From positions 1-21,123 of IMG/VR virus record IMGVR_UViG_3300004282_000012: DNA of 21,123 nucleotides. The stretch is one strand, 5' to 3'. The translations under genes and the position numbers were made by a program. The first letter of the stretch is position 1. Every line of letters begins with the position of its first letter. The notes below the pieces were generated by a model. That model did not search any database. It worked only from the letters and a program-made list of their open reading frames with translations, and was not told the origin of the DNA. Source of the stretch: a virus. This document shows, piece by piece, positions 18,540 through 21,123 of this stretch.

Positions 18540-19616
18540 ATGTTAGTTTATCTTGCAAATGGCGACGGCTTCAACGGTAACATGTTTCTGCTCGAGCAGA
18601 TCATTGCTCACCTCACCACCCTCGGCCACATTGTGTGCAACCCGTGGACCGCTCATAACTGGTCGGCTGAAGTCAAGGCCGCCACGTCCTTCCCTATGGT
18701 TGCTGAGCAGCATGCCGCCTGCCGTAGGGTAGCAACTCGCATAGCACATGAGAACTGGTTGGACATCGAGCGTGCTGATACAGTGCTCGCAGTCCTCAAT
18801 GGTATGGAGCCAGATAGTGGTACAGTTTCTGAGCTCGCCTACGCTGCAGGGCGTGGTAAGACTGTGTACGGTATCCGCACAGACTTCCGTGACTGTGGCG
18901 ACCTGCCTGGTGTAGCCCTCAACCTCCAAGTTCTCTTCTTCATCGAGAACAGCGGTGGTTGTCTCTACCGTGCAGTAGAAGAAATAACACTCACCCCCGC
19001 TGGCTCACCCAGCGACCCACCAAAAGGAGGTAACACCATGGAAGAATTAATCATCGGCCTTCACACACAGTCAGCCATCTCATCGTGGTCACTCGACGAG
19101 ATCGAGTACAACGTAGCCAAGGCTAGTCTTGGCCATGAACACTACCAGTTCACAGAGCATCCCTCTGATGAAGATGGTATGCGTATGATAGCCATCCTTC
19201 GCACTATGGGTGCTACAGAGCGTCAGATCACCGACGTTTGCATCCACCTCAACTTTGACGAGCCCATCACTTTTGATGACTCAGCTAACACCATGAAGTG
19301 GGTGCAAGTAGCAATCCACCGTGAATGCTTTGTGGACCGTTGGGGACGTATCCTGAATGGCCGCTATATCCACCGCTACGCAGAGGGTGAGACCAACCAG
19401 TCTTACCAAGAGTTTGGTGACCTGGTTGATGCCAGCGAGACCTACCATAATGTATACGGTGAGCTCTGTGTTCGTAAGACAGACAAGCTCATCCCTTACG
19501 GTATCTACGACGCTGAGACTGAGCGTGCATTTTACTGGGGCGCGTACACAGAGATAGAACTCCGCCCTTATGTACACCCTATGTTTGAAGACGAGGGTGA
19601 GTACAACAACTGGTAG
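18540..19616 (+). CDS. Nucleoside 2-deoxyribosyltransferase-like protein fused to an unknown C-terminal domain
   Basis: A 358-residue frame with AAAGGAG and 5-6 bases spacing to ATG 18540. Residues 1-150 have the nucleoside 2-deoxyribosyltransferase pattern: an opening strand VYLANGDGF; DIERADTVLAVLNG (75-88); then EPDSGTVSELAYAAGRGKTVYGIRTD (90-115), in which E98 corresponds to the catalytic glutamate of the '(G)T..ELgyA...gK' motif; and FFIENSGGCLYRAVEEI as the last helix. Such enzymes exchange bases between deoxynucleosides or hydrolyse them; phages use them in nucleotide salvage or base modification. Residues 151-166 are a linker (SPSDPP) whose DNA contains a hairpin and a strong ribosome binding site. 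Residues 167-358 are a second, unrecognised domain that can also be started on its own (see the 19038 entry). Confidence 0.75.
   Translation: MLVYLANGDGFNGNMFLLEQIIAHLTTLGHIVCNPWTAHNWSAEVKAATSFPMVAEQHAACRRVATRIAHENWLDIERADTVLAVLNGMEPDSGTVSELAYAAGRGKTVYGIRTDFRDCGDLPGVALNLQVLFFIENSGGCLYRAVEEITLTPAGSPSDPPKGGNTMEELIIGLHTQSAISSWSLDEIEYNVAKASLGHEHYQFTEHPSDEDGMRMIAILRTMGATERQITDVCIHLNFDEPITFDDSANTMKWVQVAIHRECFVDRWGRILNGRYIHRYAEGETNQSYQEFGDLVDASETYHNVYGELCVRKTDKLIPYGIYDAETERAFYWGAYTEIELRPYVHPMFEDEGEYNNW
19038..19616 (+). CDS. Unknown acidic protein from an in-frame internal start
   Basis: ATG 19038 (codon 167 of the longer frame) is preceded by AAAGGAGGT with 6-base spacing, a near-perfect match to the anti-Shine-Dalgarno sequence and as strong as any in the cassette. 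This makes a separate 192-residue product very likely, with or without the fusion. The protein is acidic and rich in aromatic residues (SSWSLDEIEYNVAKASLGHE, DEDGMRMIAILRTMGATERQ, FYWGAYTEIELRPYVHPMF, ending EYNNW). I recognise no family, catalytic motif, membrane segment or signal peptide. Neighbours suggest a role in nucleotide or host takeover metabolism, which is inference only. It is followed by the first hammerhead ribozyme. Confidence 0.7.
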   Translation: MEELIIGLHTQSAISSWSLDEIEYNVAKASLGHEHYQFTEHPSDEDGMRMIAILRTMGATERQITDVCIHLNFDEPITFDDSANTMKWVQVAIHRECFVDRWGRILNGRYIHRYAEGETNQSYQEFGDLVDASETYHNVYGELCVRKTDKLIPYGIYDAETERAFYWGAYTEIELRPYVHPMFEDEGEYNNW

Positions 19617-19635: not shown

Positions 19636-19715
19636 ATGACGTTAAACTGCTCATCGGCGAAACGTCGCGAGACGTCGTCACACGGTGATGCGTGTGGCCT
19701 GATGATGCCAGTCAT
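19636..19715 (+). ncRNA. Type II hammerhead self-cleaving ribozyme (copy 1)
   Basis: All invariant core positions are present in order. GAAA (19659-19662). Stem III: A19662-U19675 plus CGTC/GACG, closed by a GCGA loop (19667-19670). Cleavage-site C19676. Stem I: 19677-19684 pairs with 19691-19698 (8 bp, one T-G wobble) around loop GTGATG. CTGATGA (19699-19705). Stem II is the open helix: GGC (19656-19658) with GCC (19707-19709), plus a possible outer helix ATGAC (19636-19640) with GTCAT (19711-19715). One extra T (19706) lies between the core A and stem II. CATC (19652-19655) can pair with GATG of loop I, a plausible tertiary contact. The predicted cut is between 19676 and 19677. It sits between the fusion gene stop and the ribosome binding site of the HAD gene. 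Confidence 0.85.
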
Positions 19716-19740
19716 TAGATCACTACAAGGAGGTAACCAT

Positions 19741-20109
19741 ATGGAACGCTCTGTCATCCGCATAGACATAGACGGCACACTGCTTGACGGCAGCCTTGAT
19801 GCTGAGTTCATAGCCCGTGGTTATGACCTTGAGTGGTACTCTACCCAATACGTGGATGGGTTGGCAGTTAACTACCGCCTTGTCCGTCTTATGATCAGCC
19901 TACGTGCACGCGGTCATAAGCTCATCCTCTGGACTAACCGTGATGAGAATAAACGCGCTATGACTAGGATTAACTTAGGCGTAGTATGGGACCTGTTCCA
20001 TGAGCACGAGTTCCATGCAGGTAATAAGTTCGGCACTAACCTCGATGGTTATACCATCGACAACGAGACTAAATATGTCCATAAAGGACACATCATCCGT
20101 GGCTTCTAA
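19741..20109 (+). CDS. HAD-superfamily hydrolase (phosphatase-like)
   Basis: A 122-residue protein from ATG 19741, chosen because AAGGAGGT lies 6 bases before it; the longer open frame starting at 19570 runs through the ribozyme. Motif I is RIDIDGTLLDG (catalytic D9, general acid D11). Motif II is LILWTNR (T65). A lysine at 96 (GNKFG) could serve as motif III, and YTIDNET (about 104-110) fits the acidic motif IV. The compact size matches small cap-less phage HAD proteins related to nucleotide or polynucleotide 5'/3'-phosphatases. Which phosphate it removes is unknown. It is notable that hammerhead cleavage leaves a 2',3'-cyclic phosphate, and that some phage HAD domains act on RNA 3' ends; a link is speculation. 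The next gene starts 11 bases after its stop. Confidence 0.75.
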   Translation: MERSVIRIDIDGTLLDGSLDAEFIARGYDLEWYSTQYVDGLAVNYRLVRLMISLRARGHKLILWTNRDENKRAMTRINLGVVWDLFHEHEFHAGNKFGTNLDGYTIDNETKYVHKGHIIRGF

Positions 20110-20119
20110 AGGAGGCACT

Positions 20120-20275
20120 ATGTTAGAGAACCTTGTTGTAGAGCTGTTAAAAAACAAGCTTGATGTAATGGCATACATCAAGAGGCTTGCCATGCAGGCT
20201 GACTTGCGGCCAGTGGATCGTAAGAGATACATTGTGCGATTAATTAATATCGCGCGTAACCACAACCTTTTGTAG
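20120..20275 (+). CDS. Small basic helical protein, function unknown
   Basis: A 51-residue protein. The start ATG 20120 has AAAGGAGG five bases before it, overlapping the stop of the HAD gene. It is helical and basic in its C-terminal half (DRKRYIVRLINIARNHNLL), with an amphipathic first helix (NLVVELLKNKLDVMAYIKRL). This is compatible with a small nucleic-acid- or protein-binding factor, but no family is recognised. It lies in a tightly spaced run of small genes with strong ribosome binding sites, typical of phage early regions. Confidence 0.7.
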   Translation: MLENLVVELLKNKLDVMAYIKRLAMQADLRPVDRKRYIVRLINIARNHNLL

Positions 20276-20284
20276 GAGGATGAT

Positions 20285-20578
20285 ATGAAGACTATCATCA
20301 TTAAACAGAGCCCTATAGCCGACTGCCCTGAGTATGACACGGTAGTCGAGCGTACCTACCCCGAGCCTATGGACTTGGCTACATGGGCAGAAGAGGTACG
20401 CACTATCATCGAGGCTAACCTTACCCTCGATGAATCATTCGTAGTAAGGCATGTAGCCATGTGCTCTACGCCTCCTACTAAGGCCGGCCTTTACCCTCCA
20501 GCAGAGGTTAAGGCTGCACAAGACCTGCTGGTCACTACATACGGCGTAGGATACGTCCTGCGCACAGAGGAGGTGTAA
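20285..20578 (+). CDS. Small acidic protein, function unknown
   Basis: A 97-residue protein. ATG 20285 follows TAGGAGG, in which the TAG is the stop of the previous gene. It begins with a strand MKTIIIKQSP. A helical segment MDLATWAEEVRTIIEANLTL follows, then FVVRHVAMC and a helix AEVKAAQDLLVTTYGV. The mixed alpha/beta pattern suggests a small folded domain. No motif, membrane segment or signal peptide is seen. It overlaps neither neighbour; the next start is 1 base beyond its stop, so they are probably translated together. Confidence 0.7.
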   Translation: MKTIIIKQSPIADCPEYDTVVERTYPEPMDLATWAEEVRTIIEANLTLDESFVVRHVAMCSTPPTKAGLYPPAEVKAAQDLLVTTYGVGYVLRTEEV

Positions 20579-20579
20579 T

Positions 20580-20813
20580 ATGACCATTACCCCTAAGATG
20601 GTATGGTCGGCACTTCGCGCTATCTATTGGTTCATTACCAGTGGCTGCGAGAAGCTGCCTGTTAACCAGCGCAACGCACGCTTTGACAAGTGTCGCGGTT
20701 GTGCTATGCTCCAGGTATCCATGCGCTGTGGTCTTTGCGGCTGCTGGGTACGTATCAAGACATGGCTGCCCCGTGAAGCTTGTCCTATAGACAAGTGGAC
20801 GGCAGCTAAGTAG
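20580..20813 (+). CDS. Small zinc-ribbon-like phage protein
   Basis: A 77-residue protein with GAGGAGGTGTA before ATG 20580; the ribosome binding site lies in the end of the previous gene. The N-terminal helix (MVWSALRAIYWFITSG) precedes a cysteine array: KCRGCAMLQ, then RCGLCGCWV, then ACPIDKW. The spacing C-x2-C ... C-x2-C-x-C ... C-P-x3-W is a recurrent small phage zinc-ribbon pattern ('C..C......C..CGC.l..K......CP..kW'). It probably binds one zinc ion. Its function in phages is unknown; nucleic acid or protein contact is the usual guess. Confidence 0.75.
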   Translation: MTITPKMVWSALRAIYWFITSGCEKLPVNQRNARFDKCRGCAMLQVSMRCGLCGCWVRIKTWLPREACPIDKWTAAK

Positions 20814-20816
20814 GGC

Positions 20817-20861
20817 CTTTATATAGACCAGCATGTCACTAAACTGCCACTGTTTATAAAG
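20817..20861. repeat. 7-bp inverted repeat bracketing an intergenic spacer
   Basis: CTTTATA (20817-20823) is the exact reverse complement of TATAAAG (20855-20861). The spacer holds AGCATGTCACTAAACTGC, which resembles the sequence just upstream of ribozyme copy 1. The right arm leads into the GAAAGGAGGTG ribosome binding site of the next gene, so folding would place the structure immediately before it. Confidence 0.55.
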
Positions 20862-20877
20862 AAAGGAGGTGATACAT

Positions 20878-21060
20878 ATGACCCACTCGACAGAAACCAT
20901 TGGCACGCACAAAGCCATCGGTGTGGTACTCGGCTACGGTGCTGACTACGTTGAGCGTAACAACGCTCATAACAAGTACTATCGCTCGAAGATCTACAAG
21001 CAGGGTAAGCTTGTACGCGTGAAGATCGGGCACAAAGCCACGATCAATCACATCTACTAA
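20878..21060 (+). CDS. Small basic protein, function unknown
   Basis: A 60-residue protein. ATG 20878 is chosen because AAAGGAGGTG lies 6-7 bases upstream; a GTG three codons earlier lies within the ribosome binding site. The protein is basic and rich in Lys, His and Tyr (ADYVERNNAHNKYYRSKIYK, KLVRVKIGHKATINHIY), with a likely beta hairpin at the end. No family is recognised. Its stop lies only 6 bases before the GAAA of ribozyme copy 2, so a terminating ribosome would cover the ribozyme's 5' strand. Confidence 0.68.
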   Translation: MTHSTETIGTHKAIGVVLGYGADYVERNNAHNKYYRSKIYKQGKLVRVKIGHKATINHIY

Positions 21061-21063
21061 CTA

Positions 21064-21123
21064 GGCGAAAGGACTGTCGTGAGACAGACCTCTGTTAAGG
21101 GTGATGCCTTAGCACTGATGATG
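21064..21123 (+). ncRNA. Type II hammerhead self-cleaving ribozyme (copy 2), cut by the window edge
   Basis: The same order as in copy 1. GGC then GAAA (21067-21070). Stem III: A21070-U21091, GG/CC (21071-21072 with 21089-21090), an A-A mismatch, then CTGTC/GACAG (21074-21078 with 21083-21087) closed by a GTGA loop. Cleavage-site C21092. Stem I: 21093-21100 with 21107-21114 (8 bp, one T-G wobble) around the identical loop GTGATG. CTGATGA (21115-21121), followed by TG as in copy 1. The 3' strand of stem II lies beyond the right edge. Nearly every helix position differs from copy 1 while pairing is kept. The predicted cut is between 21092 and 21093. Confidence 0.82.

Follow-up and report, generated by a model that had tools for sequence, protein, structure and literature searches.

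Does the intergenic stretch that precedes a HAD-superfamily phosphatase gene in this viral operon encode a self-cleaving RNA? The initial annotation of the window, which is the whole 21,123-nt stretch of IMG/VR record IMGVR_UViG_3300004282_000012 analysed here, had placed a hammerhead ribozyme in a 124-nt gap at this position. The size of the gap was confirmed in the sequence, as were the coordinates of all the conserved core bases (GAAA, U16.1, C17 and CTGATGA), of the 8-bp stem I and of stem III with its GNRA loop. Judged from its sequence, the segment 19656-19715 on the plus strand is supported as a type II hammerhead ribozyme whose core is complete. The type II reading rests on the sequence of the core, on the overall architecture, on the pseudoknot, on covariation and on conservation among related phages, and it agrees with the open stem II that had been proposed. 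This segment is very probably a functional ribozyme, lying in sense orientation within a phage early operon.

Read from 5' to 3', the segment consists of GGC, GAAA, a CGTC-GCGA-GACG hairpin, TC, an 8-bp hairpin with a GTGATG loop, CTGATGA, T, GCC and AGTCAT, all on the plus strand, and runs from the 5' strand of stem II to the end of a pseudoknot tail. GGC (19656-19658) pairs with 19707-19709 to form the open-ended stem II, which has only 3 bp and whose pair columns covary in relatives. The conserved GAAA (19659-19662; G12, A13, A14 and A15.1) is invariant across a 35-sequence alignment, and the A15.1-U16.1 pair completes the 5 bp of the covarying stem III hairpin (19662-19675), which is closed by the GCGA loop. 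Beyond C17 (19676) lies the stem I hairpin (19677-19698), in which 19677-19684 pair with 19691-19698 around the loop GUGAUG (19685-19690), with compensatory changes in 8/8 pairs. The catalytic core CUGAUGA follows (C3-A9; 19699-19705, G8 being 19704), and an extra U (19706) stands at the junction of A9 and stem II. The GUCAU tail (19711-19715) forms a pseudoknot with GUGAU of loop I (19685-19689) in columns that covary and are conserved among relatives; such pairing of loop I with the tail after stem II is found in the majority of type II hammerheads, according to Perreault et al. 2011 (PMC3088659).

Loops thus close stems I and III while stem II is open (order GAAA-III-UC-I-CUGAUGA), and three covarying helices (I, 8 bp; II, 3 bp; III, 5 bp) surround the core. 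The invariant hammerhead bases GAA(A15.1), U16.1-H17 and CUGANGA are present both in this copy and in a second one at 21064-21123. By hammerhead rules, cleavage is predicted between C19676 and G19677, 64 nt before the ATG of the HAD gene (19741), which is where the initial annotation had put it. That annotation had missed the extra U19706, the 3-bp stem II, the pseudoknot and the second hammerhead. An extra pyrimidine after A9 recurs among 140 descriptor hits (T in 100, C in 3), a share that is inflated because the search pattern required U in at least one copy per contig; no discussion of this extra U was found in the passages of PMC3088659 consulted, and the open-access literature searched yielded no account of how it affects the rate. 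All type II structural features that could be tested are present, and the Rfam score threshold is the sole miss.

The Rfam scan that had been proposed as a check gave a divided answer: at the gathering threshold no match was found anywhere in the window, and at a relaxed threshold the best match was RF02276 (Hammerhead_II) at 19655-19717, with 32.9 of the 37 bits needed (E 3.1e-5 in a 241-nt stretch, 0.0027 in the whole window). The same relaxed search also picked up 21063-21123, a second match truncated where the contig ends; its 29.8 bits are likewise below the gathering score. The 37-bit cut-off is a curated score threshold and not a structural feature, and taken alone it would have discarded what looks like a real ribozyme. 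An independent covariance model, R1, was built on 35 aligned copies from contigs unrelated to the window, with the window and its relatives absent from training. R1 scores copy 1 at 61.6 bits (E 1.6e-15) and the truncated copy 2 at 36.4 bits (E 1.8e-8), and up to E 10 these are its only hits in the window. The negative control consisted of 19 chance contig stretches chosen for both core blocks, which score at most 18.8 bits with R1. Scanning viral contigs for GGCGAAA followed after 28-58 nt by CTGATGATGCC had yielded 120 stretches; of the 123 sequences examined with a structure descriptor, the window among them, 68 were found to contain hammerheads, and the remainder are largely chance matches. 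A strict descriptor (stem III at least 5 bp, stem I at least 7, stem II at least 2) matches once in the window and never in 300 dinucleotide-shuffled versions of its full length, both strands considered; a looser one gave 5 matches over 300 such shuffles. The earlier judgement that a chance match is very unlikely is borne out by these figures.

The second type II hammerhead (21064-21123, plus strand) is located 1.4 kb downstream of the first and is preceded, at a distance of 3 nt, by the stop codon of a small ORF of 60-63 aa (20869-21060, plus strand) with homologues in the related contigs L124/L118 and L061. Copies 1 and 2 have different helix sequences but the same core, the same loop I (GUGAUG) and the same extra U. 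In copy 2, cleavage is predicted after C21092; past the contig end, CC is expected to complete stem II and a short pseudoknot tail complementary to GUGAU to follow. The contig stops exactly within this ribozyme, at 21123 after CUGAUGAUG, perhaps reflecting an assembly break at a sequence module common to related phages.

Relatives of the virus were identified independently of the RNA, by a terminase protein search that returned six contigs (68-86% identity). In five of the six, one to three hammerheads each lie to the right of the terminase, in the same early region and on the sense strand; no hammerhead is present in the sixth, a fragment of 4.1 kb. In the comparison of copies, L118 and L124 were counted once because both hold the same copies. 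The hammerheads of L061, L118/L124, L126 and L127 share with the window the early location, a GUGAY/GUGGY loop I, the extra pyrimidine and stem modules, and differ in copy number and neighbouring genes. A hammerhead also follows the L127 relative of the gene preceding copy 1 and the L124 relative of the gene preceding copy 2, while the other gene neighbourhoods differ. Stem III of copy 2 is identical to that of L061/L126 and its stem I to that of L127; stem I of copy 1 matches an L124 copy at 21 of 22 positions. By these sequence identities, stem I and stem III are hairpin modules exchanged between copies of different phages. Two records of 32 and 58 kb outside the terminase-relative set, L129 (4808-4883) and L131 (4583-4658), also contain a hammerhead with the stem III core of copy 2, ACUGUCGUGAGACAG, hinting at wide exchange of this hairpin. 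Direct searches with the HAD or the 63-aa protein found no relatives among the viral contigs, neither similar DNA nor a HAD relative was found in GenBank phages, and no terminase relative indicative of a host was detected across 84,980 bacterial and archaeal genomes at the sensitivity used.

Covariation supports the structure in both sets of copies. Among the 35 unrelated copies, 96.4% of cells at 20 modelled pairs, pseudoknot included, are standard-paired (72.6% in shuffles), two-sided changes occur in 130 cells against 36.7 in shuffles, and shifting the pairing partner by 1-3 columns abolishes the signal. The four modelled pairs of the pseudoknot are 90.7-92.5% paired, with compensatory changes at three (90.7% in the 35-copy alignment). 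Among the 11 distinct copies of the window and its closest relatives, 95.3% of cells are paired and two-sided changes number 49 against 13.1, in an alignment biased towards the nested helices of the model to which it was fitted. The pseudoknot was not fitted, and one of its central pairs occurs among these relatives as A-U, G-C and C-G. Many alignment rows stem from related phages, a caveat that applies to these counts.

The gene upstream of copy 1 (18540-19616, plus strand) is a 358-aa ORF with a nucleoside 2-deoxyribosyltransferase N-terminal domain (PF05014, E 2.1e-15). It resembles two genes sharing a frame: the match to L118/L124 is confined to residues 1-151 and that to L127 to residues 241-352, and AAAGGAGG stands ahead of an internal ATG (MEELIIG...); from its sequence, the ORF looks like a fusion, a read-through or in-frame neighbours. 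Downstream of the ribozyme, the Shine-Dalgarno sequence AAGGAGG (19727-19733, plus strand) leads the 122-aa HAD gene (19741-20109, plus strand), which matches phrog_415 (E 7.3e-8) and, weakly, HAD families of Pfam and NCBIfam. A 77-aa protein further on (20580-20813) matches DUF6171 (E 2.8e-6) and phrog_13558 (E 4.8e-11) and is a small, cysteine-containing phage protein. Consensus matching for promoters and terminators found none within the 124-nt gap.

Across the copies collected, with ORFs called by simple rules rather than a gene finder, the ribozyme starts a median of 5 nt past the upstream stop (quartiles 0 and 16; an ORF was detectable for 129 of 139 copies), and a median of 30 nt separates the core from the Shine-Dalgarno-led start that follows (122 copies). 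Copy 1, with 39 nt upstream and 34 nt downstream, is atypical on its upstream side because 39 nt is set against a median of 5. A tie of the ribozyme to one neighbour was considered and rejected: in comparisons with differing gene order, a ribozyme stands behind the upstream orthologue in 26 of 44 and ahead of the downstream orthologue in 39 of 68, and there is thus no preference for either gene.

The anatomy, its improbability by chance, the covariation, the sense orientation, the conservation in relatives and the paired layout were established here, and a mechanism can be proposed around them. In hammerhead cleavage the chain is broken on the 3' side of C17, so that stem III keeps a 2',3'-cyclic phosphate and stem I acquires a 5'-hydroxyl. 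Stems I and III would form while the polycistronic RNA is being made, the pseudoknot between loop I and the tail would dock stem I on the short open stem II, and the RNA would cleave itself between C19676 and G19677. The stem III hairpin and a 2',3'-cyclic phosphate would then form the 3' end of the upstream mRNA, while the downstream mRNA would carry a 5'-hydroxyl and start with the 8-bp hairpin of stem I, 64 nt ahead of the HAD start codon. With a second cut by hammerhead 2 after C21092, the two would release an mRNA of 1,416 nt (19677-21092) with the HAD gene as its predicted first gene and four small ORFs. The phage may benefit in that the pieces decay and are expressed separately, their ends protected by hairpins; both cleavage in the cell and this benefit are what we infer.

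Nearest-neighbour folding favours a competing hairpin at 19699-19718 that buries CUGAUGA (-27.2 versus -22.1 kcal/mol, the latter for the ribozyme fold without its pseudoknot); in the predicted fold of the isolated segment, CUGAUGAU is paired with GUCAUUAG. This modelled hairpin could rival the ribozyme or could arise in the downstream product after the cut. The tails after stem II are often complementary to CUGAUGAUGC (a GCATC motif in 13 of 135 tails, an 8-bp hairpin in the window), possibly as an off-state or post-cleavage lock. Re-pairing of tail and core has a mean duplex energy of -5.13 versus -4.71 with shuffled tails, and none of 50 shuffle sets is as low, although the effect is a small one and comes from related sequences. 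A broader proposal, which we regard as rather doubtful, is that type II hammerheads are, in some phages, a general device for partitioning mRNA at many stop/RBS junctions, in which the tail re-pairs with CUGAUGA after the cut (the pairing predicted at 19699-19718), locks the ribozyme open and leaves a double-hairpin 5' end.

The folding energies bear on whether the hammerhead, of real ancestry, has decayed or become inactive and cuts inefficiently, hindered by the competing hairpin or by U19706. Such decay would fit with the presence of that U after A9 and with an alternative fold better by 5 kcal/mol, but both copies retain an intact core, an extra pyrimidine occurs in 103 of 140 copies and in most aligned copies with strongly covarying helices, and the folding energy leaves out the pseudoknot; decay is accordingly considered unlikely. 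The swapping of stem I and stem III modules between phages, as in copy 2, which combines the L061/L126 stem III with the L127 stem I, would suit an RNA that serves mainly as paired hairpins for mRNA end protection, or DNA blocks for phage recombination, with cleavage secondary. Such a role leaves the preserved catalytic core, U16.1/C17 and the covariation of the pseudoknot unexplained and seems very unlikely.

The neighbouring HAD gene raises a further explanation, a role in RNA repair in which a polynucleotide kinase phosphatase-like enzyme processes the 2',3'-cyclic phosphate ends. Its match to phrog_415 is to a family named 'polynucleotide kinase', yet just 1 of the 28 other records with hammerheads contains this family, and the fragmentary relative L123 has the HAD gene without a ribozyme, so that the link between the two is not obligatory; the explanation is highly improbable. 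A candidate association of such enzymes with the ribozyme was rejected for lack of enrichment (1 in 28 other ribozyme-bearing versus 0 in 19 ribozyme-free records). Nothing except the sub-threshold Rfam score speaks for chance resemblance within the intergenic gap, against which stand the empty shuffles, the R1 E-value, the second copy, and the conservation and covariation in related phages; its probability is minute. A functional type II hammerhead is the preferred reading.

L132, L060, L036, L097 and L104 also contain long arrays of type II hammerheads, with about 9-20 copies per record placed between the genes of a single operon. These records comprise cultured Streptomyces phages and IMG/VR records, and 130 GenBank records match the region at least partly. 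L132 (NC_054669.1 43151-53010) matches Streptomyces phage Alvy (NC_054669) with 100% identity over the 9.7 kb compared. R1 finds 11 copies in the Alvy record, 13 and 9 in two more and 17 in another; in the same four records the Rfam model finds 11, 12, 9 and 20 at E <= 0.1, of which the weakest may be chance. Further members of these arrays likewise score under the Rfam gathering cut-off. About half of the copies in Alvy lie in annotated intergenic gaps, mostly 4-22 nt past a stop codon, and several overlap annotated CDSs, some very small; the features listed in the stretch of the Alvy annotation consulted include no ribozyme. No report of hammerhead arrays of such length was found in the open-access literature on phage hammerheads that was searched. 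The unexpected part is this scale, 11 or more copies in cultured Streptomyces phages such as Alvy, and such phages make the function of phage hammerheads testable by core mutations and reading of transcript ends.

Clustered type II hammerheads in phage operons, with mRNA processing as a possible purpose, were described by Perreault et al. 2011 (PMC3088659), and that paper provides the closest comparison. Clustered bacterial hammerheads cleaved in vitro, one set also in E. coli; mutations indicated that the pseudoknot is necessary for speed; circular or spliced products were looked for and none detected; and phage transcripts were suggested to be processed into operon- or gene-length mRNAs. Biological functions are stated there to be unproven, and the gain for the phage is therefore one that we infer. 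Hammerhead 1 is one of two in its operon and belongs to a large described class, and it is less surprising than first rated. RF02276 agrees with the window in core, helix order with open stem II, 2-3 bp stem II, pseudoknot of loop I with the 3' tail, intergenic location in phage operons and more than one copy flanking a gene block, whereas the window has one extra U after A9, a score 4 bits under the curated cut-off and other helix sequences. As in the tandems of Agrobacterium tumefaciens, Azorhizobium caulinodans and Clostridium scindens, described in the same paper, several hammerheads per transcription unit flank single genes or short blocks. Cleavage was shown for those tandems and is predicted for the window, which differs from all three in its genes and in having two copies on an incomplete contig. 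The window pair adds members to the class described in 2011.
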